A stretch of DNA of 64,000 bases from Paulownia fortunei. Taxonomy: Eukaryota; Streptophyta; Magnoliopsida; Lamiales; Paulowniaceae. The position numbers were made by a program, and so were the translations under genes. Numbering within the stretch: the first letter of the stretch is position 1; the number at the start of each line of letters is the position of its first letter. The notes beneath the pieces are model-generated. The model made no database searches, was not told where the DNA came from, and saw nothing but the letters and a program-made list of their open reading frames with translations. Below, piece after piece: positions 7,341-55,187 of the stretch. The stretch lies in NCBI GenBank assembly GCA_019321725.1, contig CM033116.1:2538642-2602641 (forward strand). The letters are read 5' to 3'.

Positions 7341-10001
7341 TCAAACTTTATTCACCACTTGCTCCTCTTTCGGCCCACCATCCTTCACATTTTCACCTTC
7401 CTCACAGCCGCTGGTCTCATCAAGATTAACACATTTATACCACTTTGCACACGCCAGGTAAATCAAGAAATCTACAGCGGTTAGAACAGCAATCAGGAAA
7501 TAAAATCTGTCCATGTGCCCCGTGTTTAAATCCTCCGGAATCCACCCGGGTTTGTTATTTCTCGCCGTGATTCCCATCACCATGTTCACCAGCATGCTGC
7601 TAACGAAATTCCCTAGAGAAATCGACGCCATGCACAGCGAGCTCCCGAAGCTCTTGATCCCATCCGGGGCCTGCCCGTTGAAGAACTCCAGCTGCCCGAT
7701 GTACATAAAAACTTCCGACGCGCCGACCAACACGTACTGCGGGATCTGCCACAATATGCTCATCGAGCTGGTGTGCTTTTCCGGAACCACTGATCTGAGT
7801 CTTTGCATTTCGGTTATGCCGGCGGCGAGCATCGCCAGCATTCCGATTATAAGGCCGATGCCCATGCGCTGGAGCTCGGTCAGGCCCTTGGGGTTGCCGC
7901 TGAGCCTGCCCGCCACGGGGACGAGGATCTGGCGGTATATTCCGGTGCAGAGGAGGACGCTGCAGATGTCGAACACCGACATGCTGGCGGCCGGGAGGCG
8001 GAATTTGCCGATGTGGGAGTCCATGACTTCGCCTTGCTCCACGAAGAGGGAGGCCATTTGGGTGAAGACCACTGAGTATATGATTGTGCAGAGCCAGATT
8101 GGCAGCATTCGGAGGATGCATTTGGCTTCCTCCACTTGGGTTACGGTGCAGAGGCGCCAGTGATTTGCCGGGCCACGGTGGTCTTCTTCTGTTATTATTG
8201 CTGCCTTGTCAAGACACCTGAAGTTTTTCCAAAAAATTAATCAGATTCCTACTTTTGTAACAGAGATGGAACCAGGATCTTAGTCCACTTGCGCCTGGTT
8301 TCATCAATCCCCGTTCATTATATAGAGCCAAATGAAGTTGGACACTGGAAAAAAAATATGATTCTCATTAAGCAAGATTGGAAAGAAAAATGAGGGCTTT
8401 TGCCACTTACTCAAATTCATCAGTATGAAAAATTTTTCGACTTCCTTTGATTGCAGACTCTGATCCTTCGACTTCGTACAACGCCTCCCCTTCCCTAAGA
8501 GTTGCTTTCCATTTCTTGGCTGCGGCGACGAATACTTGCATCACCCTCGGTAAAGGATTCCCACATGGCTTAATGTATCGGTATCCAGGGGAACCAAGCA
8601 AAAATGCCACCAATGCCACGACGGCTGAGGCGGTGGCTGCCCAGAATCCGAGCGCCCATTTGCCAGTGTCCTCATAGTACACCAATATAGTGTTTGAAAA
8701 CAAGGAGCCTGTGTTGAGTGCAAAGTAGAAGTAGCAGAAGAAAGCAGCTTTCGAGCTCTTCTGCTTAGGAATCAACTCATTGAATTGATCGGCTCCAAAT
8801 GTGGCTATGGTGGGCTGGTGGCCACCATAGCCGAAGGCCACTAAATATATAGCCAAGTAGAATACGGCCGAGGCATATGAAGTAGTCGGCACGCAGATTT
8901 GTTTGCCATCACCACAGCCCTCAGGCTTGAGCAAGAATAGCCAAGATGACAAGGACAGAAGCACCAGGCCCTGTAAATTCACAAAGGACGTGTTTTCAGA
9001 TTAATTAAGATATTAGCTAATAAAATGGACAAAAAATAGTGCGAAAATGGAATTTCAATTATCTTATCTATATTTACCAGAACAAAGATGACTTGAAAAA
9101 TTGCACAAGTAAGATAACGGCCCCAGTATGAATCACTGAGGAATGCTCCAACGAGGGAGCACAAGTAAACAGTTCCAGTCCATTTGCTGACATTATTAGC
9201 TGCAGAAGCATTGTCTTGTCCGAGAACTCGAGTTAAGAACAAAACCAAGTTCACCCCAACGCCAAAGAAAGCTAGTGTTGCAAGCCCTTGATTTGCTGCA
9301 CCATCAAAATTCCAATTTTAAGGAAGAAAAAAGAAGTGGGAAAGTTCTAAAAAGAAATAGTAGTGATCTCAATTAACCTGATATTCTTGGAACAAATTTA
9401 ATAGGGAAAGAAAACTACCTAGCAAAAGAAATGCAGAACTCCAGCCTCCTGAGCTATTCTTTTTAATATCTTCATTGCTTACAGGTCGTGCTTCAGGGAT
9501 ATTCAGGGTTTCAGTTCCCTGAAAAATCAGAGTTAAAGCATATATAAGTTCATGCAAGAAAATTTTACGATTAAATGCCAAGAACATAAACTTTGTACTT
9601 TTACGAATCAATGTAAGTAAACTCCATCTGACCTGTGTTACATAATGAAAAGAATCAGAAAACCAAAAAAAAAAAAAAAATCCAATGAAAATTACAATTG
9701 CGCGACGGAATATGAAGAAATTAAACAAGGTGAAAACTATATGCACATGGAGAATGCTACTTATGAAAGAAAAGCAAGGACAATGTACCAAGGTACGCAG
9801 GCAAAATGAGATGCCCTCTAAAACCAGAAATAATTAAGGAGATAGCCAAGGGGCCCCTACTCTGTCTCTAAAAACCTGATTCAGGATGCGGGTCAACTTT
9901 TTCAAGACTTAATATAAGTTCTATGGTATAACTTTTGCATTAGAAAAGAGCTATTAAAGGGACAAAAGTGCAATACCAACCTTTGGTGGTGCAGTCTCCA
10001 T
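7341..10001 (-). CDS. NPF7: NRT1/PTR family (NPF7-clade) major facilitator transporter
   Basis: Five coding exons on the minus strand: 9981-10001 (21 bp), 9419-9518, 9078-9295 (218 bp, a classic NPF exon), 8411-8970 and 7341-8217. The phases agree and give 591 residues. The protein is a 12-TM POT/MFS carrier of the plasma membrane. Segments such as NQGLATLAFFGVGVNLV, GGHQPTIATFGADQFNE, WLCTIIYSVVFTQMASLF and GASEVFMYIGQLEFFN point to the NPF7 clade (NRT1.5/NPF7.3, NRT1.8/NPF7.2, NPF7.1), whose members load or unload nitrate and potassium in xylem. The first membrane helix lacks the ExxE(K/R) proton-coupling motif of most NPFs, as I recall for NPF7.3. The linker reads HTDEFECLDKAA, with Cys where most homologues have Phe. 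Which clade member it is, and its substrate, are not decided. Confidence 0.9.
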
Positions 10002-16413: not shown

Positions 16414-18965
16414 TCACCAATTTAAGGAAGAATTCTGCACGGTACGGCCATAGTTCCTCGAGAACTTCTTAACTGGTGCCGTACGTACTAACTGAAAATC
16501 ACTTGGAATTGGTTCTGCTGGGCTGGAACCGTTATCACATGGTTCTGCTTTTGCTTTAGCAAAACCTGCATCAGTGAATGCATCCCTTAGCGGCATCAGT
16601 TCTTCCCCCTCTGGCACCAGAGTCTTCATCAGCTGCAATTCAAGAGCCGGGGTCAAGTTTTGAAGATGCAAGCTTAACTCAGTTTCAAAGAACCAAATAT
16701 GTAAGCAAAAAGGAAAATGTCAAATGGTTTGTAGTTAAGCTTATGGGGAACAAGTAGTTTGTCAAATTTAAATACCAAGGATCAAGATAGCAGCTTTGGA
16801 ATTTGTATTAACAATTAAGATAGTGCTCAGATACACAAAATCCTGATGATTTTATTCACACTGCCATACCTTCCAATCATCAAAGTCAAATCTGAAGATG
16901 AATTGGTGGTTTTTAGCTACTCCACTCTTAATTTCCTGTGCACTTGGACCATTGGTAGGGACTGCAATAGAAAAAGCAACAAAATTATAGATTCATAGCA
17001 ATGCCACACAAATGAATAAGAAAGATCAAGAACATTTTCATAAGAATGTGGGGAAAGAGGTATACCAACAACTTGAGAACCAATCTCATCTACATCTATA
17101 CGAACTCTCCCATCTTTTACCAAGAAAGACAGCGCAAATAAGTTCTCAACTGTCTGAGCAAAAGAATTTCTGTTCAACATCAGATTTTCAACTTTAACTT
17201 TTTTCTCCTTCTTTAATATCTCAAACATCATGTGCATGTTTCTGTCAGTGTCTGTCACCACCTCAGCAGCTTTTTCGAGCTGCTTAAAAAAAATGGAGGA
17301 TAAATTGATTGTGCAAAAGGATAAATCAACAAGGTTCAAAAAACCATAAAAATACCAAGCAAATACACTAAACCCAAGTGGATCAGAACATTGACAACAT
17401 GAAACTGATAAAAAACAAACTATTGCTCCACATATTAGTAAAATGGAAACTGATTGATTCCTGAAGTAGAAAGGGTTACTGTTATCAGCAACTGCATCCA
17501 AGAAAGATGCTCCATAAAACAAGCATTACGATTGACACATGAGCTAGCTGTAAAGATTTTATCTTAACATAAAAATAAATATAGCATTCCAGAGCAAAGG
17601 TTGCAGTATACTATACAGAAAGGGAAAACTAGGAAAAAAGTTTCAATCCTACCTCTTCTGGTCGAGCTTTTCCTATTGACCTTGATCGTTTTGCACGAAC
17701 CACCAACTTCCATTGCTTAAGCTCATTGTTCATAGGTCCAATCCTAAAAAAAAGCCAAGCAAATAATACAACACATAAACATTGATATACACATTCACAA
17801 TTCATATGCAGATCTTAGCACATTAAAGATATGAAACATAAGAAAACACTCACATTGTCATGCACCCTGGTCCAATCATGAAAAAAGGTGAACAAAGAGA
17901 GCCAACAATTTGCCACAAAATATTAGGTGAATTCTCCAAAAGCCCCTTCATAGTTTTTTGCTGCCCAAATTTCTTCAAGCAGGAAACAAACTCAGCTGGG
18001 GTAACACCTCCACTAGTATGTGTTTTAACAGAAGCCACCAAAGTGCTTGTCAGTCCTAGCAAAGCTTCTGCATCAGCTACCTGCTCCCTAGGCTTGTTGA
18101 CTCGAATAAAAAATTTATGCATTAATATAATGAAAATAGAAGTATGCAAATTTTTAATGCATGTCTCCTCAAAAGTCTTAGACATGTCAATGAAAAAATG
18201 TGAACAGCTTACACCAAGACATATGCTTATTTCATGATCAGAACAGATGGATTTTCAGAGAGATGGATTGCACTGTTATTATCATTGAAATTCTCTACAA
18301 AACTTTGACAAAGAAACATAGTATCTTCAATAAATGTTAAAAATAATCGTTATTCAAATAATGTGTACTTTTATGTAAGTCAGAAACTCAAAGTTAATTA
18401 ACACCTTCACTTACTCTTGGAATGGATAAGGAACTTCCACAAAACCATCAGAAAATAATAAAAACCAAATTAACACAAATAACTGCTGCCAAAAAATTGA
18501 ATATTCTTCTATAACACTACGGAAAAGAAAAGAATATATACTTCAAAAAACACACACTTACACAGACAGAGTGTGAGAGAAGAGTAATAATACCATGTTG
18601 ATGCATGTTTTCTACTTCGTTCATAATGGCCATAAACTTATTCGAATCCCCATTTGCTATTTCATCCTTTCCTTCTGCACCATACACAAATAAAAATTTC
18701 AAAAAACAGAAAATCAGTATTAAACTTCAAAAAGACCCATAACAATAGCAGCATCATTTACATGCAGAAAAAGTGGAAGCCCATTTCAAGAAACTAGAAA
18801 AGATCAAGTACCATTGATGCGGTTTTCGATTTCACGGTAATGCGAACGAATAGTCCTACGCTTCGACACGGGATCATTCTCCTGAGTCGACTCGTTGGTT
18901 TCTTCCGTAACCATGGAGTCCCCTCCATTGTCTGTCACTCTATCCCTCTTCAAATTTCTCTTCAT
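16414..18965 (-). CDS. NSE4: NSE4, kleisin subunit of the SMC5/6 complex
   Basis: Seven exons on the minus strand: 18812-18965, 18594-18674, 17854-18100, 17653-17743, 17066-17279, 16870-16961 and 16414-16632. They are in phase and encode 365 residues, close to Arabidopsis NSE4A/B (about 380-400). NSE4 bridges the SMC5 and SMC6 heads with NSE1/NSE3 and acts in nuclear DNA repair and sister-chromatid alignment. Diagnostic segments are NKPREQVADAEALLGLTS, GGVTPAEFVSCLKKFGQ, and the C-terminal winged-helix block with NRNSFAQTVENLFALSFLV and VPEGEELMPLRDAF. The start MKRNLKRD was chosen because the basic N-terminus matches the family; the frame stays open upstream but looks non-homologous. The acceptor before exon 5 is a tandem AAGCAG, so an isoform with one extra Gln (exon end 17282) is possible. 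Confidence 0.93.
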
Positions 18966-21064
18966 CTCTGTGTGTGTTTGTGTGCGTGTGGAGAGTATCA
19001 AATTTTTGTAAGTCTTTTCACAGGAAATTTGAAATGTCTGCTTCTTGCAACGAGGAATGTGTGTGCGTTGGGAAGTTTGGATGGTTTTTGTTTTCCCTCT
19101 CTTTTGAAATATTACCGGGAACCTTGTTTCAGAAGACTGGGTTAAATTCATATTTAACTGGGTGAACATGATATGAGGAAAAAGTTGTGGGGGTAGAATG
19201 TAATAATTCTAATTTAGTGTGAATTTCACTTTGTCCCCCTCAAACTATGACAATATACACTTTGACCCTCCTTAAGAAAATATAATTTATTTTTCAATTT
19301 TACCTTCTTTTTCAATATATTTGAGAAAATATTAAAATTGAAAATTTTATTTTCACTTAATAATATAAAACAACTAATTTTATATTATACCAACTACAAA
19401 ATGACAAAATTACATTTTATCTTAGTTTATTACATAAAATAATATTTTTATTTAATCAATTAATTTTACTTTTATTTATTATAAATAATTATTAACTAAT
19501 TAATAGTCATAAAACTGGTGTGATTGAAATATCGTCTGAAAAAAAGAATAATGTAGGTAAAAAAAACCTTTAAATCTTAAGAATAAGAATGCAGCGTAAG
19601 CCGTCAATTTCCTTAACCTTTTGGCATAAGAAGACATTAGTCCCAAACATGGTATTGTGATCATGCAATTTTTGTTAGCATAGAAATAGTTGTTTCGAGC
19701 CTTTAGATAATTCTACTTACCCACTTGCTAATTTATGGTAAACCATTTTATTTAAAAGTCTTTCAAGCTTTTTTTGAAAGTAATAAATATTTGACTGACT
19801 ATTATGATAACTAATAAATAATTTTTTTACTGAATAAGATTATTATCTTATATAATAAACTAAATAAAATTCAACTATGTCATTATTTTGTTTAACTTAA
19901 ATAAATTATTTTATAATATTAAGTACTTTTTTTTTTCTTGATAAACTCTAGTAATATTAAGCCGTTGTTCGGCTGAAAAAGAGAGGAAAATTAGTTCGCC
20001 CTTGGACTGACTTGGCCCAATATATAATAGAAATGTGAAATAGTTTTCACATTATTGCACTTCACAAACTACATAATCAACAAAATTTTCAATGTTTGTT
20101 TGGTGAAGGGAAAGGCTAAAGTTAGAAATTTAATAATTTTGGATTATGCCTTCTTTATTTAATTAAAACATGGAAACCTTCAATCAAATGTTTACTTGAA
20201 AATTGCTTAACAAAAACTTCCCCTTCACTAATATTTCATTTTGCAGGAGTCATCGCTCAATGTCCATTCCAAATATATATAAGTTGTTGTTATACTAGTA
20301 TTTAATTCGGTGGTTGAATCAGAGAAAAATCGTCTACCCTCAAAATTAATCAAGTCAAGCGTGAACATCCAAGTTATAAATAATAATAATAATAATAATG
20401 ATAACTCTTGATATGCACCTATAAGAACATTTTTAGAAAGATAAAATAATTATGAATGTATGTATGTTACAAATTACCATCCAAAAGACAACATATATAT
20501 ATATATATATATAAATGATGTAAAAATTTTAAATGAATAGTTATTATTATTATCAGCCTTCAAATGTGGATAATTCTCAAATTCTCACACAATACATGTA
20601 GCCATAAATTAATATCAATTATGGTGACCAACAATATAGTTAACTCCTAATACTAATTACATGTAATTTATAATTCTCAATCCCTCAAAATATCATATGA
20701 ACCCGTAGAGATTAATGTAACCAACAATGTTAATGCTATAAACTCAAAATTTATACTAATTACATAATTTTCTAATTGTCAATCCCTTGTAGATTACTTA
20801 TGTACCTATTGAAATTATTGTAATCAACAATATTTTGAACTCAAAAGTACTTACCTAAGTATGTATGTATTTTCAACCCACACTTTTTTCCTTTTAACAC
20901 TTGTACAAATGTAAGTTCAAACAACTTTAAAGCCAGAACAGCACCATCCTCGTTTTATGCATATAGAACCAAATAGGTTGGTGTATACTCAGGCGTTACA
21001 CAGACATAAGAAATAGAGGAAGAAAGAAGAGAAAGGAGAGAGATAGAGGGGAAAGAAAGAAGAG
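18966..21064. other. Intergenic region between NSE4 and the SANT-like gene
   Basis: AT-rich DNA carrying the head-to-head promoters of NSE4 (-) and the SANT-like gene (+). It contains an (AT)n run at about 20492-20513 and a short AAT repeat near 20381-20399. No gene was recognised. Confidence 0.5.
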
Positions 21065-21661
21065 TTGGAAGAAATAAGAGGAGGAGATAGCAAATTTTTC
21101 AAGAAACTAAAAATGAGCACCGTCCAAGAAGCCTTGTGGCTTGTTTATGCTGTGCACCGCCATGGCATTAACAATTGGGATGCGGTGGCTGCCCAATTGA
21201 ACACCACTTGTGTGGGGTACCGGCGGGATCCGCCGCCTTACACCGCTAGAGGCTGCAGACAAAGGTATCTCACCATGAGGAAGCGCTTTAAGAATTCTAT
21301 CAGAGATATGGACACCCTCAGTCTCATTCCTGTTGGGGATGATGATCAAGAGGACAATAACAAGGCTAAAGACCAAAAAATGGAACAGGAGGATGCGGAA
21401 TACTCCGACGAAGAAAAAGAGAAAGCTCTGTTGGAGATCATGATGAAGGAGTTTAATCAGCTCAGGCAAGCTGAGCTGAGGTTGGAAATCTACGGAGAAA
21501 ATACACAAGTGAAGTAAGATATCCAATTTCTTCCCTTTCAATCATTTGTTTTTCTGTTTTTTCACATCCTCAGAGCTGTGAGAATGAATCTACAGAAAGA
21601 AATAGTCAATGTAGAAGGGAGCTCAAGCACTAAAAATGGCAAGCACTTTCGCCATGCATAG
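21065..21661 (+). CDS. Small SANT/Myb-like protein related to the N-terminus of plant BRD8-type bromodomain proteins
   Basis: Exon 1 runs 21065-21513 and ends at a good donor (GTAAGA). Exon 2 is probably 21574-21661 after ttcacatcctcag, giving about 178 residues; without splicing the ORF stops at 21517 (150 residues). Residues 19-75 look like a SANT/Myb-like domain (EALWLVYAVHRHG, NNWDAVAAQL, ARGCRQRYLTMRKRF). They are followed by an acidic stretch and a helix with FNQLRQAELRLEI, equivalent to the 'RVAELRREVERYD' segment of plant DNA-binding bromodomain proteins. Those relatives continue into a bromodomain, which is absent here. Met17 (21113) is an alternative start. This may be a truncated duplicate with remaining function or an early pseudogene. 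Confidence 0.55.
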
Positions 21662-23011: not shown

Positions 23012-27992
<4,981 letters not shown>

Positions 27993-30425: not shown

Positions 30426-30758
30426 GATTCCATTTCATTTGTAATTTCGTATTAACTTCAAGGTAATTGTGTATTTTCCTTATATGCCAGCTAATCCCCT
30501 TATCACTTTCTTCCTTGTAGCTCAATATGCACAAAATGATATGGGATATTATTTTGATTTTTGATATTTGTATGATCCTGTCTGCAGTATACTGGTGCTT
30601 CTGCATTTAAAAGTTATTTTAGAACTGTAGCTGGATGGGTTTTGAAATGTTGGTCTTGATAACATGTATATGCATATTTTGACATTTTTAGACTATGCAA
30701 CTGTGTCTTGTGACTTTTGGATGAATATGATCTCTCACGATTATTCATCATTCAGGAA

Positions 30759-31463
30759 ATGAGAGTTCCTCGAAGCATTGAGATCTGGAAGATGGGTGTT
30801 GTCAATTACTTTGAGGCACTTAAGCTGCAAGAGAAATTGACATCTGATAGAAAAATACACAAGATAACCGATACCCTGCTGTCCCTACAGCATCCACCCA
30901 CATATACTCTTGGCAAAAGGCGAACTGATCATAATATATTGGTTTCAGAGGCTGAACTTAAAGCCATGGGGGCAGAACTTCACTACACACAACGAGGAGG
31001 TGATATCACATTTCATGGTCCTCACCAGGCTGTTTTGTATCCCATTATTTATTTAAGAGAGATTGGCTTAGGGGCTAGAAAGTACGTGGAGAATCTTGAA
31101 TCAACAATGATTGAGTTGGCGTCTTTATATGGTGTCAAAGCTTGTGCTGGACAAACAGGTGAAACGGGGGTTTGGGTTGGACAGAGAAAGATTGGTGCCA
31201 TTGGGGTTCGTATATCTTCTGGAATTACATCCCATGGGTTGGCATTTAACATCAATCCTGATTTGAACTACTTCAAGCATATTGTGCCATGTGGGATAGC
31301 AGATAAAGAAGTCACATCTTTGCAAAAAGAGGTAGAACAGGTGCTCCCTCCTGAAGAAGTAATTCATGAGCAGTTGATTTCATGTTTTATAAGAACATTT
31401 GGCTACGCCAATATTATTTGGAGAGATAGTTCATTGGTATCCTCAGATTATAGAAAAAACTAA
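30759..31463 (+). CDS. LIP2: LIP2, mitochondrial-type octanoyltransferase (lipoyl pathway)
   Basis: A single coding exon of 234 residues, the size of Arabidopsis LIP2 (At1g04640). It is a LipB-type enzyme that moves octanoate from acyl carrier protein to lipoyl domains of pyruvate and 2-oxoglutarate dehydrogenases and glycine cleavage H protein, before LIP1 inserts sulfur. Signatures are HPPTYTLGKRRTD, QRGGDITFHGPHQ, the catalytic Lys in RKIGAIGVRISSG (K144) and the catalytic Cys in HIVPCGIADKEVTSL (C178). The start is the first Met after an acceptor (ttattcatcattcag, then gaaATG), so the 5' UTR is probably spliced. The frame is open upstream to 30717, but that part lies in the intron. Mitochondrial location is known for the family; no long transit peptide is visible here. 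Confidence 0.95.
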   Translation: MRVPRSIEIWKMGVVNYFEALKLQEKLTSDRKIHKITDTLLSLQHPPTYTLGKRRTDHNILVSEAELKAMGAELHYTQRGGDITFHGPHQAVLYPIIYLREIGLGARKYVENLESTMIELASLYGVKACAGQTGETGVWVGQRKIGAIGVRISSGITSHGLAFNINPDLNYFKHIVPCGIADKEVTSLQKEVEQVLPPEEVIHEQLISCFIRTFGYANIIWRDSSLVSSDYRKN

Positions 31464-37411: not shown

Positions 37412-37671
37412 ACATGTCACAAGTCATTGGGCCCTTCTTCTATGTTCATTCTCTTTCCAAGAATAGCCAAGGGAGGCTCTATTTGAGAGTCAATGAAAGG
37501 AAGACAATTATTTTTTTTATTTTTTTTTTGTTTTCAGTCAATTTATTGACCAAGACTTCTCAACTGCTATGGCAAGAAAAAACTTGTACAATTCTTCCAG
37601 CATTTCTTGCACAGATTGAGGTTGCTTTATGGTATCCCAAAATAGTGAAATCCTAAAAACTTTCTTGGTTT

Positions 37672-40086
37672 GTGAAAAAAATGATCACTTCTGAAATGGC
37701 TTTTGCAGTTTCATGTAGACTATCGTTTATCTTGCTGATCATTATGCTACCAATTTCAGCCACGGCCCAATCCTCCCGCAACGTTACTTTGGGTTCATCC
37801 ATAGTTGCAAACGATGCAAATTCCACTTGGAAATCACCTTCCGGGGAATTTGCTTTTGGCTTCCAGCAGGTTGCTCCTGGAGGCTACTTGCTAGCCATCT
37901 GGTTCGATGAAATACCTGAAAAAACCATTGTTTGGTCTGCCAACCGTGATAATCTAGCCGAACAAGGATCAAGAATCCAACTTTTTGCAGATGGGAGGTT
38001 CGAACTTGATGATCCAAGAGGCCGACGGATTTGGGCTGCTAATTTGGCTGGCTCTGGTGTGGCATATGGTGCGATGCTTGACAGTGGTGACTTTGTGCTA
38101 GCAAGCAATGCTTCAGCCGTCGTGTGGCAGAGTTTTGATGAGCCAACTGACACATTATTACCAGCCCAGATATTCAATCAAGACAGTAGTCTGGTTTCCA
38201 GCTTTTCTGAGACAAACTACTCAAGAGGAAGATTCAAGTTCGGCTTGCAAACTGATGGAAATCTTGTGAGTTACACTAGAAACTTCCCAATGGATGACAA
38301 CGTTTTTGCGTATTGGTCAACACAAACTCTCGGCACTGGATTCCAGTTGATCTTTAACCAATCTGGATACATCTACCTCATCGCAAGGAATGGAACTATA
38401 CTTAATTCTCTGTCCTCAAATGGAGTTTCAACTAGCCAATTTTATCAGAGATTCACACTGGATTATGATGGGGTTCTCAGGCATTATGCCTATCCCAAGT
38501 CTGCTAATTCAACAGGTGGGAGGGCAATGGCATGGTCCGTTAATGTATTTTTTCCTTCCAATATATGTCTCCGTGTTGGAGGAGATACAGGAGCAGGTGC
38601 TTGTGGATTTAACAGTTTTTGCTCATTAGGAACTGATCAAAGGCCTATCTGTGGGTGCCCTATTGGCTACTCTCGGATGGACCCGAATGACAGGATGAGT
38701 GGATGCAAACCAGAATTCCTTCAACAGAGCTGTAATCAACAATCACAGGAAACTGACCTTTTTAGCTTAGGCGACATGTCTAACACAGATTGGCCTAACT
38801 CTGATTATGCTCATTTCCAATCAGTCACTGAGGATTGGTGTAGACAGGTTTGCCTTGCTGATTGTTTTTGTGCTGTTGCAATATATAGAGACGGTAATTG
38901 TTGGAAGAAGAAAATCCCTCTTTCCAATGGGAGGATTGATCCTAGCGTAGGGGGAAAGGCTTTGGTAAAGATAAGGAAAAACAACACGACAGGGAATCCT
39001 TCTGGCTGTAATCCAAGTAAGAGCAACCGGTCCACTCTGATCATCACGGGGTCAGCTTTGTTGGGCAGCTCAGTGTTTCTGAACTTACTCCTATTTGCAT
39101 CTGTATTGCTGTTTGTTTTTCGTTTCAACGGAAGAAAATCAAAGACGTTTCAAGCATATACAGTTCTTCCAGGAGTGAACATAAGAAGCTTCAGTTTCAA
39201 TGAGCTACAAGAAGCTACAAATGGATTCAAGGAAGAATTGGGCAGTGGTGCTTGCTCAACAGTGTACAAAGGGGCTCTCAAGGATGAAAATGGAAAAGTT
39301 GTTGCCGTGAAAAAGCTGGATAAGATAGCCGGAGAAGCTGATCAGGAATTCAAAGCTGAAGTGAGCTCAATCAGCAGGACCAACCACAAAAACCTTGTCC
39401 AGTTGCTAGGATATTGTGATGAGGGTAAACACAGGCTTTTAGTGTATGAGTTCATGAGTAATGGCTCTTTGGCAAACTTTCTATTTGAAAACTCAAGGCC
39501 CAACTGGTATAGAAGAGTGCAGATTGCATTTGCAACTGCAAGAGGCCTTTGCTATTTGCATGAAGAGTGTAGCACCCAAATCATACACTGTGACATTAAG
39601 CCTCAAAATGTACTTTTGGACGAGTCCCATACAGCAAAAATATCCGATTTTGGGTTAGCCAAGCTTTTGAGGCCTGATCAGACTAGAACCACCACTGGAA
39701 TAAGGGGAACTAGAGGGTATGTGGCTCCAGAATGGTTCAGAAACATGCCTATAACAGTCAAGGTGGATGTTTACAGTTTCGGGATCTTGTTGCTCGAGCT
39801 GCTATGCTGCAGAAGGAATGTTGAAACAGATGTTAAGGATGAGAATGAGGTGATTCTTGCTGATTGGGCTTATGATTGTTACAAACAAGGAACATTGCAA
39901 TCGTTAGTGGCCGACGATGAGGAGGCCATGGATGATATCAAACGATTCGAGAAATTCGTGATGACAGCAATTTGGTGCACTCAGGAAGATCCAGCATTGA
40001 GGCCTCACATGAAGAGAGTAATGCATATGCTTGAGGGATCAGTTGAAGTCCCTGCTCCTCCAGATCCTGCATCATTTATTAGTTAG
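37672..40086 (+). CDS. G-type lectin S-receptor-like serine/threonine protein kinase (LECRK/RLK1-like)
   Basis: An intronless gene encoding 804 residues. In order: signal peptide (about 1-32), bulb-type mannose-binding lectin domain (about 35-175, with GEFAFGFQQV, TIVWSANRD and VVWQSFDEPTDTLLP), a Cys-rich EGF-like segment (CGFNSFCSLG), a PAN-like domain (WCRQVCLADCFCAVAIY), a TM helix (about 454-483) and a kinase domain. Kinase landmarks are the Gly loop GSGACSTV, Lys547 in VAVKKL, HCDIKPQN with Asp641, and DFG at Asp659. HCD replaces HRD, so this is a non-RD kinase, as is common in immune receptors. The protein sits in the plasma membrane and the subfamily includes rice LecRKs for pathogen and insect resistance; the ligand is unknown. 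Met4 and Met9 are alternative starts before the signal peptide. Confidence 0.94.
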   Translation: MKKMITSEMAFAVSCRLSFILLIIMLPISATAQSSRNVTLGSSIVANDANSTWKSPSGEFAFGFQQVAPGGYLLAIWFDEIPEKTIVWSANRDNLAEQGSRIQLFADGRFELDDPRGRRIWAANLAGSGVAYGAMLDSGDFVLASNASAVVWQSFDEPTDTLLPAQIFNQDSSLVSSFSETNYSRGRFKFGLQTDGNLVSYTRNFPMDDNVFAYWSTQTLGTGFQLIFNQSGYIYLIARNGTILNSLSSNGVSTSQFYQRFTLDYDGVLRHYAYPKSANSTGGRAMAWSVNVFFPSNICLRVGGDTGAGACGFNSFCSLGTDQRPICGCPIGYSRMDPNDRMSGCKPEFLQQSCNQQSQETDLFSLGDMSNTDWPNSDYAHFQSVTEDWCRQVCLADCFCAVAIYRDGNCWKKKIPLSNGRIDPSVGGKALVKIRKNNTTGNPSGCNPSKSNRSTLIITGSALLGSSVFLNLLLFASVLLFVFRFNGRKSKTFQAYTVLPGVNIRSFSFNELQEATNGFKEELGSGACSTVYKGALKDENGKVVAVKKLDKIAGEADQEFKAEVSSISRTNHKNLVQLLGYCDEGKHRLLVYEFMSNGSLANFLFENSRPNWYRRVQIAFATARGLCYLHEECSTQIIHCDIKPQNVLLDESHTAKISDFGLAKLLRPDQTRTTTGIRGTRGYVAPEWFRNMPITVKVDVYSFGILLLELLCCRRNVETDVKDENEVILADWAYDCYKQGTLQSLVADDEEAMDDIKRFEKFVMTAIWCTQEDPALRPHMKRVMHMLEGSVEVPAPPDPASFIS

Positions 40087-47020: not shown

Positions 47021-48730
47021 TTAGTTAACAAACTCTTCTTTCATTGCCAGGGAGAGAGCACCTAGGCTACCTTCAGTACCTACTGTCACTCCAGGCATGG
47101 CCACAGCTCTGCTTCCCACAAATCCACCTTTCCTGATAACAATCTTTCCATACTTTACTTTACCCCCCTCACCTTCATATATGTGTCCAAAGAGCAAAGC
47201 TTCTCTTCCCACAGACCCATACTCTTCTATTTGCATCAGTTCAGGATTTAACACAGCACCCATGCTGTCCACATAAACCCCTCTGTCCCAGGCAACTTCT
47301 GATCCCATGAGCTTCATCCATATGTTGAAGAGAAATGATCCACCTGTCATTTCCATGAAATACTCTCCAATCAGTGTCCTTATGGCCTGCCAAGTAGTGT
47401 CCATGAATATCCCTATACTCCAAATCGGCTCGATTTTGCCTTCTTTCTTCTGCCCTACCAGAATCCATTTACTCAATGCACAAAGAAGCCCTGCTAGGAT
47501 GCCTGTGCAAAGCCAAAAGAACGGCAGCAAGCAATGCATCTGTGTTTTGTTGATCTTATTCAGGTAGAAGATGAAGTTCATTGGAGCAAAAATTACCAAT
47601 CCTATCAGAAAATAAGGCAGAAAAATCTGTAGAAATGGTTGAGCAGACATCAGCCACAAGGTTACGTACCAAGGCCTTGCCAGTGTCACTTCTTTGGCAA
47701 CGTTTTTCTCCAGTGTAACTGCCATTGGACAGCCTGAAAGGTCAACTTTGACATCAGACTGATCCAAGAAAGTCCTCCAAGCCTCAGGAAGTGGCCTTTT
47801 GTTTCGCAGATGCTGGCATATTGCGTACACTACAGAACGGCCATGATCCATTGATGCACTCTGATTACATGATGAAGCCCTGATGACATCCACTTCGGGA
47901 CATCTCAGAAATGGGTTAAACTCGAGATCTTCTGATTCCTCTTTGGTGAGCACTTGATCAATGGTGATCTCTCCCACGTCAAAGTGTGGAAACTCAGTTT
48001 CATCCCATGGCTTGGTACAGTCAAGTGCAATCTCACGTGTCATTTCATCATCTGGGACTGGCCGCATTTGTAGCTGAAGGACATAGCGAACTCTATCTGG
48101 AGAATTCACCCGCTGTTGAAAATCATCAGCGAGGAAAAGTAGAGGACGCTTATCACTTTCATCTCTTGGGATCGCACCTGTTTCTGGTGGAAGTATACCC
48201 ATTGGCTCGACCTTGCCATTGTCCTCACTGAACTTCTTATCAAAGGGCCTCAACTTGAATTTGACATACATTTCTTGTCCATCTTTGAATCTGAACAGCC
48301 TGGAAATGTTTGAGTAATAATGAAGCTCGGAATAAGAGTCTGCTCTCCTTAAGGAGCCCCACATCGCATCCCGAATGTGTGGAGAATGCTTCACATGCTC
48401 TTCTCGTGCGGCAGCTCCACAGACAAGCCACGTGGCAAAGTCGCCTATGGTTCGTGCATGAAATGCATTGCCGGTCTTCAAGGTCAAATCAAGCAGTGGA
48501 GATGTCTCATCAGTGATGTTTGAAAGGATTCTTATTGCTGCACCACGTGGATCGAGACGTGCATCATCATCTGAGCTTAAACAATTACTGTGGCGCATGA
48601 TGATGGAGTATTTCTTCCCAGGGGAGAAGATTATGTGATCTGGGAAACTTGGCAGGTGATCATAAAGCCTTAGAAATCCCTTGCCAGCAGCACCAATCCG
48701 GTGGAAGTATCTTGAACGTACTTTGAGGGT
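47021..48730 (-). other. Catalase-like and C-terminal beta-helix portion of the synthetase
   Basis: Sub-feature of the large gene. Catalase-superfamily landmarks in order are RYFHRIGAAGKG (distal His region), DARLDPRGAAIRI, GNAFHARTIGDFATW, SRLFRFKDGQEMYVKFKLRP, PHFDVGEITID and HGRSVVYAICQHLR. The last corresponds to the proximal GRxxxYxxxxxR heme motif of catalases. Two hydrophobic helices (LPYFLIGLVIFAPMNFIFYL; LPFFWLCTGILAGLLCALS) and the hexapeptide-like stretch GKIVIRKGGFVGSRAVAMPG follow to the stop. Confidence 0.7.
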
Positions 48731-51700
48731 CGAGCCTGCGAAATTTGCTGCAAGATTTCCCAGTACCTTCCTATATTTCATGTCCATCTCCTCTATCCTA
48801 TCATCGAAAGAGTGCATGGTGTTCTTAACCATGACTGGAGTTGGAGAGCCAACAAAAACGCCACCTCTCTGGAGAACTCTATTTGCAGGAGCAACTGAAA
48901 GTGCCCCAAGAATGACATCTTTCTCAAGGACAGAACCAGGGAGCACTAGGCCTTGACTCCCTACTACTGAATTGTCTTGTATCTCGATTCCCCCTGAAAT
49001 GTAGCCGCTTGAGGTGTAATAGCCAGGAATGATGCGGCTGAAATCCCCTAAATGCACACCATCGGCTAGCGAAACGAGTTCTGGGTCTGACACAGGATTG
49101 ATGGCTCTGATGGAACAATGTTGCCCAACTTTGGCTCCCATATGGCGTAAATACAAACAGAAAGCTTCTGTTCCAGAAAGGAACTTAGCAAATCTTATGT
49201 GGCACGCAGTTACAATCCTGTGGAGAAACCAAGTTTTGACAGGTGTTCTAGACATATCTTCATTTCTTGCTAAATAGGATTTGAGTAAGCAAGTGAAACA
49301 ACTTAGAATAAGCCCATAAGTGGTGTAAGCCATGGCTATGGAGATGGCAAAACTGATGGGGTTTGAAGGGACAGTGTTAAAAATCACTGTATATGCAACA
49401 ATGGTGTGAGGGAGCCAATGGAAGGCTCCAGATACACAAATAAATGCAAAGTGCTGCACGGTGGGAGGCTTTTGCAATATCCAGAGGTAGATGAAATAAG
49501 ACATAGCTGCTGATAAGCTGCCAAGACAACCAATTGCATAGATGCCAAGTAAGTGAATGATGGGTGCATAATTCTCAGAATTTTTGCTGATGATTTGCTT
49601 TACCATTTTACCCTGTGGTCATCATAGAAGCAGAGAAAGCAAAGGTCAGTGTATCAATCTCCAAATTTTGGCTTACACTTCCGCTAAAATATGCTACCCA
49701 TTAATCTTTCAAGTACCAGAGAAACTATGTGCATATTCCAAGTACATAACTACTCTTGCAAGTTTGTAAGAGCCAACACTTCAAAAGGTGATATTATATA
49801 ATGCTTGATACAAAATGCTCTATGTGCTGTTGCTGATTCTCTATTTCTCGTGACATTCTCCAGTGCATGGTGACCAAGAGAAGTGCTGCATGGGTAAATT
49901 CAAGAAAATCGATTGTTCTGACTTATTTACAAGTTTGCCATTTTCTGTTTCGGGGCTGAAGTCAATAATAATATGCATTAGGAGATTTTAGTAGCAATGT
50001 AAGAATGTAGGCATTTTCAGTAAAGAACAGTAAAATGCATTTTCTAAATTGTAAGAGAAGCAAAACATAAAAAATTCTTTTGGAGACCATGAGCATAGAT
50101 GTTTTCAGTGACTAACCTTTTGGAAATTATCCACATCCAAAGTTGTAGCCTCAGTCTTTCCAGAAGTCAGTGCAAGTACTTCATCTCCTTCTTCCACCAC
50201 TATGCCTCTCTGGAGCAGAGCATATGGTCCCACTGAACATCTTGGACCAATTCTGATGGGGTAGAAACTCAGAATTCCATTTTTCACTTCGTGGCTTTGA
50301 ATCAATGCTCCTTCTGCAAGTACCGCATCTTCCCCAATTGAAACTAAAAATGGATCAGTGATGTCGATAGTATCAATTAATGCAGAGGATTCAATCTTAG
50401 CTCCTAGCATCCTAAACCAGTAGTTGATGAACACAGTGCCTCTCAGGTGAACTGCAAGAACTTTTGAAGAGATCTCTTGAGCCTTGTAAAGCGCCCACCA
50501 CTTGGCAAATTCAGCAGACCAAATTGAAACCTCAGGATCCAAGGCATAGTTTGGCTGCAGAAATGGAGTGCCCAAGAAAGCTATGCAAATGCAAGTGGAG
50601 AAAATGCACAACATCCAAGAAAGAGGGGCACACACCAGGGTAATCAAGTAATTGAAGCAGGTAATTCTCTGCATTGTGTGGTTAGTAGACATCCAATATG
50701 TAAATGTGGAAACTGAGAGATAAGCAGGAAACATCAGCAAGAAGCAAACATAAGCAAGCACTATGAGTTGCATTAACCAAATGCGCAGCTTATGAGATAA
50801 AGAAGCCTCAAGAGCAGTTCCTGCTGCTTTTGACTTTTTCTTTGTAGAATTTGGCAAACCAATAACTGATTGAGGACGGGACTTCTTTAACAGATTAACT
50901 GCAAAATTTGCCAAGTCGTCAATGCAGGTTGCTGTAAAAATATCGATTGCACCAACAGGAACCCCGAGAAAATCTGAAAGTTTTTGAGCGGCTCGAACCA
51001 CACCAATGGAATCAACCCCATAAGATACAAGACTTTCAGTGGTGGAGATACTGGCAATAGAAACTCCAGTCATTTGAGAGAGCAGCTCCATCAAAAAGTT
51101 TATTATGTCTGTCTTTGTTATACTGGAACTTGTTGGTGGGTGAGTTCTCATGGCTTGAGGTTCTGATGCACTTTCCTTAGATTGGATCCGCAACTTTTCT
51201 CCTGTAATTAGCTGATCAACAATATCCAGAGTTCCATCAGAAAACTTTTTAAGACATTCAAACCTCTTGATTTTTCCTGATGTTGTCTTACTAATGGTCT
51301 TTGGTTTTATCAGAACAATGGAAGCGACCATAATTCCATGTTCTTCTGCAACACAGGTCTGAATCTGTTTAATAGCTTCCTTCATAATGGACTTAACTTC
51401 TCGAACCTCCGCAATTACCACCAGCCCAAATTGATCAGAAAATTCAGAAAATGGTATCCCTTTTGACAAAAGTATCTCCTTTGGAACACCAATTGCAGCA
51501 CAACAACCAGGGCGTATAAGTTGACATGAATTCTCAACTGTTTTCTCAACATCTGAGGAATATATATTCCTACCTGCAACAATTATGAGATCTTTTATCC
51601 GGCCTGTGATGAATAATTTTCCATCAATAATTCGCCCCAAGTCTCCAGTTCTTATGTATTTCTTGCCAGGATTGTTATATTGTTCATTTCTGAACGTCTT

Positions 51701-54700
51701 TTGACTTAACTCCTCCCTATCCCAGTACCCAACTCCAGAACTTGGGCTACTAATCCACACCTCCCCTTCTTTTTCAGATTTTTCATGCTCCTTGCTAGTT
51801 TCCAGATCAACAATTTTGATATGGACATCAGCATCATCATCTTGATTAATGTAGCCACAACACACCCTATCTTGCCAATCAACTAGTATCGCTTTACCTT
51901 CTCCATATGCGCTACATACATAGACACAGTTCTCTGCTAATCCATAACCAGGAGCCATAATCTCTTGAGAGAGTCCAAAAGGTTGAGTCAACTCAAGAAA
52001 CTTTTTCATGGTTGTTGCCCTGATTGGTTCAGCAGCAACCATGAGAAAAACCATGGAGGACAAATCAAATTTTTGTGCTTTGTTAGCCTCTAGTCTACGA
52101 ATAAGGAGTTCAAAGGCGAAATTGGGGCCAGCACTATGAGTAGCACGATATGTGCTTATAGTTTGCAGCCATAATAGGGGATTCCTAATAAATGTCAGTG
52201 GAGAAAACAAAATTGCAGACCCACCACTTACCAAACTAGTAAAAAGTCCACCAATGAGTCCCATGTCATGGTACTGAGGTAGCCAACTCACTAGCACTGT
52301 ATTTGATGTGCTCTTGTATCTTCTTCTCATCATCTTTACATTGTGAATAAGCCCACCATGAGTTATCATGACTCCTTTGGGGTCACCGGTTGAACCTGAT
52401 GTGAATTGGAGAAAACACAAATCATGTGCTGAAGGTTCATACTTCTCAGCAGTGTGACCAAGAGAGATGGAGATTTTGGATTTTTTCACCCAAGAGTCTG
52501 TATGCAACCATGGCAAATCAGGCCAACGAGGGGATAATTTGCTGTTTCCTTTAAGAGCTAACATGTTTCTGGCAGAAGCTGCCTTAACTGTTATGTGATA
52601 GCTAACTGTTGATAGAATGGCGACTGCATTGCATGCTTCGGCAATGTTAGAAACATGAAGAAGTGCTTGTCCACCTCTCTGCAATGGATCGGGAGGAATT
52701 GCAGGCACTGGTATGACACCAGCTCTCAAACACCCAAAGAAGGCATCAATGAAATCTAGACCTGGAATATAGACCAAGAGAACCCTATCACCGGTCTTAA
52801 TGGTCGGGTTATGACAAGTGAGAAGTTTTTCAGAGATTTCAGAAGCATTTGAGTGAAGTTCTTTATACGTTCTCTGGGCTACAACATGCCCCTTCTCATT
52901 GATCCATGTATACAACGTCCTGCTCTGGGTGACACTATGAGTTCCCCAATATCTCAAGTATGCATCAAGCGAGGAAAGATCTGGAAACTTGACTCCTGGT
53001 GATTCATCCAGTTGCCTGGAAAGTAAGCCTTCATAACTTGGTTTCAATGTCAATAATCTCTGCAGAAGCATACATTGCAATTATCTAAGTTAATAACGGT
53101 TCAAAATTGACCTTGTTAAATCAATGCCAAAACTATCCATGTTTTAATAAAATGTGTACGCATTTTCATTACCTTGACATATGGATAGCTTGGTTCAGGA
53201 TTATCATTAGAGAAATGCTTCCGGACAAGCTCCAAGGCATAGCTAGAGTTCCTCTCTGTCAGCTCAAATGCCATTAGGCCACCAACGAAGTAAGTATTGT
53301 GTTGACCCTGCAGTAGAAACTCCAGCTTATCATAGAACCCATCCTTCATATCTGTTTTTATGAAATAACAATACAGTCAGAACGGAGATGTGAATGAATG
53401 CCTCTGAACTTTCTTATTACTCGTAATATAGCATACCTTCACTGCTCACATGAGGAAAGTACTTGAATTTTCGTTGTAAAATCACTCTTTTGATTTCCCC
53501 TCCCATTCTTTTGGCTGCAGCTATGGCAAGCTCAGCAACTTTGGTTCCCTGAATATCAGCAGAGTTCCCATAAGACCAGAACAGGAAAACATCTGTATTT
53601 TCATAAAATCTCTGCATTGCAACAGGATTTCCTATAGCTGCAGGATCATCCATAAACTCATCAAAGTAATAAAAACCCTTTGGAATGTGCTCCAACCCCT
53701 TTATATTCAAGACAGTGGTATAGTAGTCAATAGTTTGCACTTTACTGAACAACTCCTTTTCCAGGTCACTTATGTCGATGCGGTCGCTCACAGAATCTGC
53801 ACAGAGAAAGCAATTTAATAATCTTGAGGAAACTACTAGAACTTTTTTGTATTATGATATCTAACTTACCTGTTGTGTTCAACGACGGTGATCTGTAAGT
53901 CTTCCCACTGTTAAATGGAAAAGCACCAGAGATAATAATTTTATCAAATTCTCTCCCTTGTACATCGCCATTCTCAGTTCTAAATTTAACTTTGATGCCA
54001 GATGAATCACGTCTAACTGATAGTACTTCTGTGTTGCAACAGACTTCTATAGGCAGCCTTTCACTCAGCTTCTTCCAGAGACTCATGTAACCTCCTTTGA
54101 ACCGCCGAATTTTTCCAGCCATTGATGTCCTGGTGAACTCATGAATGTAAGCGTATGGCATGTCTTGCACGTATCCATATCCTGATGCTGTGTATCCATA
54201 TATTACTGATTTAGGAACTGAGGGAAAGCCTTGATTTTTGAGATATTCAGGAGCCAAATCTGGAGCAATTTCACTCACAGCATGCACTCCAATTCGACCA
54301 GATGTTTTAGCCTTATCCTGCAGAAAGAGGACATAGAATCAGAAGTGGTTGAGTAGCTGAAATTTACAGGTATGTTTTATCTCATCATCTGCTGACCTGG
54401 AGTTTCAGTGTAAGAGAGATCATAGATACATAATCTTCTACCAACTTCATTTCACTGAGAGCTCCAGTTGAACTGTTAATGAGTGCAAATTTATGGGTGT
54501 CCATTTCCTCTGTTTCCACACCAACCTCTCTAGCCAAATGAAAAATAGAGGGAGCACTGTTTGCTGCAAGAACTTGACCTCCCAGATCATAGATCCTTCC
54601 TGTAAGAAGACACAAAAGGTGTTTGAATTTTATTTTCTTTTATTTTCACTGAGAAACTTTGACTTCCAAAATTTTCATTCACCAAATGCAAGACACACTG

Positions 54701-55187
54701 TACATGACTACGTTCCCATGCCATAATCCCCAAATATTATGCGATTACTCATGCATAGGCACTTAGTTTTTGCCAAATATTCCTTCTACATCTTCAATAT
54801 TTAAAACTACTCTGCGTTTTTCTAATACTAGTTCAAACTTGTTCAGTTGTCAACTATTCTAATTGTTTGTAACAACCCTCATGTTAAGTTTTTGCTTGTT
54901 AAGTTTATCTAAACATAAGATAATATATTCATGCAGCATATACCTTCAACTTCAACTGATTCGCACATGCCTCCAGGGGATTGATGTTTCTCAAACACTG
55001 TTACATCAGAGTAACCCAGTTTGCATAGAGCATAAGCAGCAGAGAGTCCACTCGGACCAGCTCCAACTACTGCAATCCTTGTTTGTGGAGGAAAGCAAGG
55101 GTGCAGCTTTGAGAATTGATCAACAATTGATACTCCATCCATGTTTTCCAGGCACTTTGCTCTGTAGGTAATTTTAAATTTAACCAT
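47021..55187 (-). CDS. Multidomain NRPS-like synthetase: FAD oxidase - acyl-AMP ligase - carrier - membrane/beta-helix - catalase-like
   Basis: Seven minus-strand exons: 54944-55187, 54397-54599, 53870-54317, 53437-53796, 53173-53351, 50117-53059 and 47021-49612. The phases close exactly to 2,322 residues. Domains: FAD amine-oxidase-like, 37-475 (VGAGPSG at 41-47, C-terminal NTYFVGGL); FAAL-type adenylation, about 480-1080 (TSGSTG near 698, SWLPQYHDMGLIGG, TGRIKDLIIVAGRN, catalytic Lys1074 in SGKIKR); carrier domain with phosphopantetheine Ser1162 (GVDSIGVV); TM helices and hexapeptide beta-helix repeats (about 1210-1720); catalase-fold domain (about 1755-2075) with His1763 and R2051-x3-Y2055; then two TM helices and a final hexapeptide module. 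The terminal half resembles the Pls/PosA NRPS terminal family. An in-frame TAA directly precedes Met1; Met16 (55142) is an alternative start. Probable role: activate an acyl or amino acid, hold it on the carrier and modify it at a membrane. Product unknown. Confidence 0.88.

Follow-up and report, generated by a model that had tools for sequence, protein, structure and literature searches.

We think that the gene at 47021..55187 on the minus strand of the window (the whole stretch of 64,000 nucleotides of Paulownia fortunei DNA that was analyzed) encodes a plant membrane-bound, carrier-based fatty-acid-modifying synthase, most likely of the oxylipin type, that would release its chain by transfer. 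We put the probability of this reading at roughly 55%. The gene is very probably a member of a plant family that we recognize by its published description: Patil et al. (2021, eLife; PMC8460268) reported plant proteins of unknown function in which a fatty acyl-AMP ligase (FAAL) lies between "HemY" and "catalase" domains. The domain order here (FAD, FAAL, catalase-type) fits the description of that family. The initial annotation knew of no described product for this architecture, and had not taken the 2021 report into account; the architecture itself is not new. Two other articles (PMC9342972 and PMC11837247) also refer to plant FAALs, and the portions of them that we consulted do not describe this architecture. 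In the one open-access collection that we searched, we found no published function for the architecture; other work may exist outside it. A single plant protein of this kind would mean that plants process fatty acids while these are bound to a carrier.

Exon structure and reading frame

The gene runs from a start codon to a stop codon through seven exons, all on the minus strand. Exon 1 (54944..55187; amino acids 1-81) includes the start codon, with an in-frame stop immediately 5' of it, and the FAD-binding loop GAGPSG (amino acids 42-47). The FAD domain continues through exons 2 (54397..54599), 3 (53870..54317) and 4 (53437..53796) and ends in exon 5 (53173..53351). Exon 6 (50117..53059; amino acids 479-1459) encodes the FAAL, the carrier domain, and a membrane/beta-helix unit (unit 1), and exon 7 (47021..49612; amino acids 1460-2322) encodes unit 2, the heme domain, and unit 3. 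The initial annotation had joined seven exons in perfect phase into a protein of about 2,320 residues, and this was borne out: the spliced frame has 2,322 amino acids and no internal stops, none of the six junctions breaks the phase, and all six introns have GT-AG borders. Five of the introns contain in-frame stops; the exception is intron 3, which is stop-free, but because it is 73 bases long, its retention would shift the frame.

Counted from stop to stop, the open frames of the two long exons span 991 and 865 codons. In 40 simulated first-order Markov windows of 64 kb each, with composition taken from 46.0-56.5 kb, the longest stop-free stretch was 125-197 codons, so chance is excluded for these two exons. 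The GC content at codon positions 1, 2 and 3 is 0.49, 0.40 and 0.39, as compared to 0.33 in the introns. We rejected a pseudogene, given 2,322 codons without a stop. The window does not contain a second copy of the gene: the best match outside the exons had E = 0.30 over 12 residues.

We also considered whether there might be two or three neighboring genes, with exons 1-5 or 1-6 in one gene and exon 7 in another. Exon 7 has an in-frame ATG two codons past the splice site (amino acid 1462), reading through the end of exon 6 would reach a stop at the fourth codon beyond the donor, and intron 6, with the donor GTTAGT, exceeds the other five in length, at 504 bases. However, the conserved phase argues against separate genes, AATAAA is absent from intron 6, and a cut there would divide a three-unit region that was modeled as one domain in PosA (PMC10522769). 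Also, the HemY, FAAL and catalase domains occur together in the published plant proteins (PMC8460268). We consider separate genes to be improbable. The frame, the logic of the domains, and the published description of the plant proteins together suggest that all seven exons are transcribed as a single unit.

Relatives of the FAD, ligase and heme domains

In a Pfam search, as proposed in the initial annotation for its domains, four families (Amino_oxidase, AMP-binding, PP-binding and Catalase) exceeded their curated cut-offs, while Hexapep fell under its cut-off (17.3 versus 27 bits). No NCBIfam model shown for any piece of the protein reached its curated cut-off. For each of the FAD, ligase and heme domains, the closest relative with a solved structure acts on fatty acids. 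The domain names, once sharpened in this way, point to fatty acids and not to amino acids.

First, amino acids 35-465 (exons 1-5) match residues 6-423 of 424 of the fatty acid isomerase of P. acnes (2b9w; E = 1.6e-25 among PDB sequences). This match scored 93 bits, versus 38 bits for the next one, spermine oxidase. For the other 46 matches listed, the best stretch is confined to query residues 30-125, unlike the full-length match to 2b9w, so that homology to polyunsaturated fatty acid isomerase (PAI) extends past the FAD loop and through the substrate domain. Matches to HemY (protoporphyrinogen oxidase) are restricted to N-terminal residues 35-123, and we rejected this identity. The FAD domain appears to be isomerase-like: its nearest relative is a fatty-acid double-bond isomerase, and not an amine oxidase, the family that the initial annotation had proposed to search for. 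A plant relative was noticed before: in 2007, the best match for the P. acnes isomerase outside of P. acnes was a rice protein, at 26% identity (PMC2885616).

Second, the ligase comprises a FAAL domain (51215..52876, minus strand; amino acids 540-1093) and is followed by a carrier (PP-binding) domain (50903..51097, minus strand; amino acids 1133-1197) with serine 1162 in GVDSIG. The FAAL domain contains TSGSTGDPKG at 698, GYGLAE at 849, TGDLG at 949, and the lysine of TSGK at 1074, which we take to be adenylation motifs and the catalytic lysine. The 15 best matches among PDB sequences scored 298-157 bits; 7 of these carry FAAL or FadD names, and the other 8 are presumably FAALs as well. McyG scored 156 bits, the first matches named as amino acid adenylation domain-containing (6ulx and 6ulw) scored 130 and 129 bits, and gramicidin synthetase and one CoA ligase scored 71 bits each. 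For exon 6, the best NCBIfam model is an NRPS/PKS model, which is matched by its first 690 positions, and after it mostly FAAL models lead, with none reaching its curated cut-off. By sequence, the ligase is of the FAAL class, since neither CoA ligases nor amino-acid adenylation domains match it as well as FAALs do. The activation of an acyl group, as originally proposed, stands, but because the ligase is FAAL-class, "acyl or aminoacyl" narrows to fatty acyl.

Third, the heme domain (47798..48739, minus strand; amino acids 1751-2064) resembles coral allene oxide synthase. It matches 1u5u across the whole domain (106 bits, E = 1.7e-29, PDB sequences), while the only true catalase among the matches listed, 1si8, had just 15 bits (E = 0.059). 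We rejected a true catalase, and the "catalase-like" module of the initial annotation is better described by its coral relative. The nucleotide loop, the adenylation motifs, the carrier serine and the heme ligand do appear intact, as had been noted.

The heme domain is 29% identical to the coral enzyme, which does not fix its reaction. The coral heme residues R64, H67, R102, Y353 and R360 (PMC5617202) are kept as R1760, H1763 (the distal, catalytic histidine, H67), R1799, Y2055 (the heme ligand, Y353) and R2062. On the distal side, T66 is replaced by F1762 and N137 by K1838. In the coral enzyme, T66 is called catalytically important, and substitutions at N137 reportedly leave catalysis as such unaffected (PMC5617202). 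Given these two replacements, the heme domain may catalyze something other than allene oxide synthesis, and we describe the domain as allene-oxide-synthase-like instead of filing it as an allene oxide synthase.

In another explanation, the FAD domain acts on the acyl chain as an oxidase and generates hydrogen peroxide, which the heme domain, as a catalase, peroxidase or peroxygenase, removes or uses. This would agree with the Pfam names (Amino_oxidase and Catalase, both above cut-off) and with the lack of a lipoxygenase domain in the protein chain. Also, the wild-type coral allene oxide synthase (cAOS) of C. imbricata frees oxygen from hydrogen peroxide with a kcat of 303 per second, but according to the introduction of that article, cAOS cannot scavenge hydrogen peroxide (PMC5617202). 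However, the nearest solved structures are, by a wide margin, an isomerase for the FAD domain and an allene oxide synthase for the heme domain instead of oxidases or catalases, and the distal asparagine that is common to cAOS and catalase (PMC5617202) is a lysine here. We view this explanation as unlikely, though it is the strongest of the competing ones.

The membrane/beta-helix units

After the carrier domain, the protein has a pattern of membrane pairs and beta-helix-type stretches, as judged from sequence and hydropathy, in three mutually related units. Unit 1 (50117..50821; amino acids 1225-1459) and unit 3 (47024..47737; amino acids 2085-2322) each have a membrane pair and a beta-helix-type stretch, and unit 2 (48755..49594; amino acids 1466-1745) has membrane segments and a beta-helix-type stretch; all are on the minus strand. 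TIGR02353, which the initial annotation had suggested as a check, matches each unit separately (E = 1.7e-21, 6.3e-14 and 2.4e-16 for units 1, 2 and 3), with 51-76 bits per unit and 104.5 bits for exon 7; these are all below its curated cut-off of 423 bits. Each unit also matches stretches that recur in two bacterial Pls/PosA proteins, and the heme domain is inserted between units 2 and 3. The beta-helix/membrane module can therefore be refined to a Pls/PosA-like terminal region of three units that is split by the heme domain. In predicted models, the terminal region of PosA has three membrane pairs with three beta-helices, whose packing resembles that of several sugar nucleotide acyltransferases (PMC10522769). 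An AlphaFold model of exon 7 from a two-row alignment had a mean pLDDT of 31.8; we rejected it, and it adds no support.

The terminal region might instead suggest an NRPS-like enzyme, a plant relative of Pls/PosA whose product is an amino acid polymer or an amide, and the resemblance of this region to those synthetases is the argument for this. But the ligase is FAAL-class, its best PDB match scoring 298 bits, and the adenylation domains of the two Pls/PosA proteins match it weakly (17.7 and 16.2 bits for the best stretch, 41.0 and 31.6 bits overall). We rejected an NRPS with an amino acid substrate on these grounds, and we consider this explanation to be the least probable of all.

Proposed function and comparison with known systems

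We return to the fatty-acid-modifying synthase, for which we infer the substrate, the product, the order of the steps, a hydroperoxide as the substrate of the heme domain, the acceptor, and release of the chain by transfer to it. The FAAL would adenylate an unsaturated fatty acid and load it onto the pantetheine arm of the adjoining carrier domain. Before or after loading, the isomerase-like FAD domain would shift a double bond into conjugation; alternatively, it might perform another desaturation or oxidation of the chain. The heme domain would rearrange a fatty acyl hydroperoxide, which must come from elsewhere, as the chain has no lipoxygenase domain. The three beta-helix units and the membrane segments may fold into one pseudo-trimeric, acyltransferase-like body, which would deliver the acyl chain at the membrane to an acceptor, either an amine or a hydroxyl. 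Of the initial annotation's overall view, a membrane-anchored, single-chain enzyme for the activation and carriage of an acyl group remains, but the aminoacyl option gives way to a fatty acyl group, and the closest relatives of the FAD and heme domains are not amine oxidases and catalases.

Plant oxylipins such as jasmonates are made by CYP74 enzymes from free fatty acid peroxides. More speculatively, the protein might constitute a second plant oxylipin route without CYP74, in which an unsaturated acyl chain undergoes isomerization and peroxide rearrangement on a carrier domain, a Pls-type pseudo-trimer transfers the chain to a membrane acceptor, the product is an acyl conjugate instead of a free acid, and the heme domain, with F and K, carries out a rearrangement that is not seen in coral. 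We hold this extended proposal only tentatively and would not be surprised if it were wrong. The domain assignments open the family reported in 2021 to a handful of simple, independent assays.

A genome scan based on an alignment of the heme domain gave 34 stretches that fit a pattern, and just 3 of these, all from Sinorhizobium, encode relatives; the scan used two short patterns and says little about absence elsewhere. Two viral scans found no relatives, one among 2 stretches and the other among 51. Among 72,556 plasmid records (tblastn), exon 7 was matched by 7, the FAD domain by 12, and exon 6 by 843. None of the 843 reached 80% coverage of exon 6 in one place, and we saw no record among them with the FAAL, the carrier and unit 1 consecutively.

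Each part of the protein has a counterpart in a different setting, and such parts are known best from bacteria and corals. The P. acnes isomerase (2b9w), which matches the FAD domain over its full length, is a 424-residue chain without fused domains, whereas the FAD domain here sits in a fusion. Coral allene oxide synthase (1u5u, 3dy5) shares the heme-ligand tyrosine, the distal histidine and three heme arginines, but it has T66 and N137 where F and K are found here, and it is fused to a lipoxygenase instead of to FAAL, carrier and membrane units. The nearest bacterial relative of the heme domain that we found is the C-terminal half of a double catalase-fold protein from Sinorhizobium (L005:3832-5895), at 29% identity. 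That half keeps T66-H67 and N137, of which the plant domain keeps only H67, and the 687-residue protein has no FAAL, carrier or beta-helix, as read by eye. The Pls/PosA synthetases (TIGR02353), which make epsilon-poly-lysine and delta-poly-ornithine, share the order of an adenylating domain, a carrier, and then three membrane-pair/beta-helix units. In the plant protein, a FAAL replaces the amino-acid adenylation domain, an FAD domain is added in front, and a heme domain separates unit 2 from unit 3. Neither the FAD nor the heme query had a match in the two bacterial Pls/PosA proteins that we compared. Finally, the family of Patil et al. shares a HemY-type FAD domain, a FAAL, a catalase-type domain and a plant host. 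The portion of that article that we consulted assigns no isomerase, allene oxide synthase or Pls/PosA terminal region, and all three are assigned here.

A seven-exon gene in an ordinary neighborhood

The gene occupies positions 55187 down to 47021 of the minus strand as seven exons, and both the coordinates and the exon count of the initial annotation were correct. With exon ends set from splice signals and phase, and the exons joined by script, the spliced translation has 2,322 residues and no internal stops. Exons 1 to 7 are 244, 203, 448, 360, 179, 2,943, and 2,592 bases long; introns 1 to 6 are 344, 79, 73, 85, 113, and 504 bases. All of the introns are GT-AG, five of the six contain in-frame stops, and an in-frame stop immediately precedes the start codon. 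The two long exons are open for 991 and 865 codons, which is more than four times the longest stop-free stretch (197 codons) in the 40 Markov-made windows that served as a null model.

Eight of the nine neighboring open stretches that we scanned contain ordinary plant-type domains, and one has no domain. On the plus strand, the domain scan found exon fragments encoding a SelO protein adenylyltransferase (24462 to 27026) and an ordinary gene with a lipoyl protein ligase A/B catalytic domain (30714 to 31463); a receptor-kinase-like gene with B_lectin and kinase domains (37657 to 40086, plus) is open stop-to-stop for 809 amino acids. The same scan found pieces of a CCCH/KH zinc finger gene (734 to 1537, minus), a POT-family transporter (7341 to 8240, minus), an Nse4-like gene (16917 to 17525, minus), and a Myb-like gene (21047 to 21517, plus; slightly under the Pfam cutoff), which is an ordinary neighborhood.

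Three catalytic domains and a carrier

According to Pfam, exons 1 to 5 encode an Amino_oxidase domain. Among sequences with solved structures, the top match to this FAD domain was 2b9w (93 bits; the second row scored 38 bits), with query residues 35 to 465 aligned to 6 to 423 of the 424-residue chain; in the remaining 46 rows, the best stretch of each was confined to query residues 30 to 125. 2b9w was deposited as a putative aminooxidase, but it is the fatty acid isomerase of Propionibacterium acnes, and an entry with the same sequence, 2BAB, is so named (PMC6162330). None of the 25 NCBIfam models listed for the FAD piece reached its own cutoff. As of 2007, the isomerase's top match beyond P. 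acnes was the rice protein Q7XR12 (26% identity; PMC2885616), which agrees with an isomerase-like assignment and hints at a relative in grasses. In Photobacterium (L003, 4364 to 7221), a stretch without annotated features holds an isomerase-like FAD gene whose frame overlaps the end of a second FAD-enzyme-like frame, desaturase-like by eye.

For the ligase in exon 6, the 15 best distinct PDB sequences scored 298 to 157 bits. Seven of these have FAAL or FadD names (FadD32, FadD23, and FadD28, twice each, and one fatty acyl-adenylate ligase), and we take the other eight to be FAALs as well, including 7r7e (named polyketide synthase) and 3kxw. Next were McyG (156 bits) and two entries named amino acid adenylation domain-containing (130 and 129 bits), with gramicidin synthetase and a CoA ligase lower still (71 bits against the plant ligase). 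In NCBIfam, an NRPS/PKS model came first (positions 27 to 688), followed mostly by FAAL models; no model reached its curated cutoff on exon 6. A motif check found the adenylation core motifs, the C-terminal lysine, and the carrier serine in the exon 6 product. A cluster on a lichen Nostoc plasmid (L002, 5865 to 18136) encodes a vanadium haloperoxidase, a P450, a PKS, an NRPS, and an AMP-binding protein with a match to the FAAL region of the plant protein.

Residues 292 to 604 of exon 7 matched coral allene oxide synthase (E = 1.7e-29, among sequences with solved structures). The sole true catalase among the 31 rows had E = 0.059, and Pfam's Catalase model was 4 bits above its cutoff over a short stretch. 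Of the residues named for the coral enzyme (R64, R102, R360, H67, T66, N137, and Y353; PMC5617202), the plant protein keeps R1760, R1799, R2062, H1763, and Y2055, while T66 is changed to F1762 and N137 to K1838. Unlike the plant domain, a relative from Sinorhizobium still has the T-H pair and the N, which are also common to catalase (PMC5617202). Because both retain them, the changes most simply arose on the plant side, judging from the one plant sequence compared. N137 is reported to be unimportant for catalysis per se (PMC5617202). The domain looks like an active hydroperoxide-type heme enzyme of uncertain product.

In Sinorhizobium terangae (L005, 3832 to 5895), a 687-residue protein joins two catalase-type folds, the second of which is allene-oxide-synthase-like and retains T66-H67 and N137. 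The NGR234 copy of this two-fold gene is annotated alongside a di-heme peroxidase and a patatin-like lipase, and the neighbors of the S. terangae gene look like these; this is a possible bacterial oxylipin locus. On plasmid pNGR234a of Sinorhizobium NGR234 (L001, 8001 to 9005), the two-fold gene looks broken: its second half is out of frame with the annotated catalase and is labelled hypothetical in the record.

The three-unit end

Hydropathy identified membrane-like segments near residues 1235 to 1313, 1477 to 1569, and 2116 to 2179, each group followed by a beta-helix-type stretch; two further segments within the FAAL domain (571 to 589 and 745 to 763) are probably false. Each unit separately matched TIGR02353 (E = 1.7e-21, 6.3e-14, and 2.4e-16 for units 1, 2, and 3), and Pfam's Hexapep was under its cutoff. 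Within the protein, unit 2 as query recovered unit 3 (22.0 bits) and unit 1 (20.6 bits); unit 1 recovered neither of the others. Two bacterial Pls/PosA proteins, encoded on plasmids of Sphingomonas and Streptomyces, had two to three matching stretches per plant unit, including weak ones (E as high as 4.6 for a stretch), and neither matched the plant FAD or heme queries. In predicted models, the Pls/PosA end has three membrane pairs and three left-handed beta-helices packed like several sugar nucleotide acyltransferases (PMC10522769). The plant heme domain sits between the second and third units. Should all three units make up a single body, exon 6, which encodes unit 1, would have to go with exon 7, which encodes units 2 and 3; this is an argument, not proof.

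Proposed reactions and known systems

All three catalytic domains suggest that the substrate is an unsaturated fatty acid. In the simplest scheme, the fatty acid would be adenylated and loaded on the carrier, its double bond would be shifted, a peroxide would be rearranged, and the product would be transferred to an acceptor at the membrane via the three-unit body; everything here beyond domain identity is inference. The 2,322-residue chain has no lipoxygenase domain, and the scheme is the weaker for it unless a hydroperoxide is available from the cell. A serious rival is that the FAD part is an oxidase, as its Pfam family would have it, and that the heme part consumes peroxide; the isomerase and allene oxide synthase matches count against this rival.

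Scans of plasmids and genomes for bacterial counterparts of the plant protein found partial relatives only. This analysis adds the isomerase-like and allene-oxide-synthase-like identities of the FAD and heme domains, the two distal substitutions in the heme domain (F1762 and K1838), and the Pls/PosA-like three-unit end with a heme domain inserted. These features did not turn up in a search of the open-access literature that included passages of Patil et al. (PMC8460268). Those authors described plant proteins in which a FAAL is flanked by HemY and catalase domains, as proteins of unknown function; the gene fits this description, so as a kind it is not new. With its architecture on record, it is not categorically new, and it can be likened to Pls/PosA-like synthetases and to catalase-related oxylipin enzymes.
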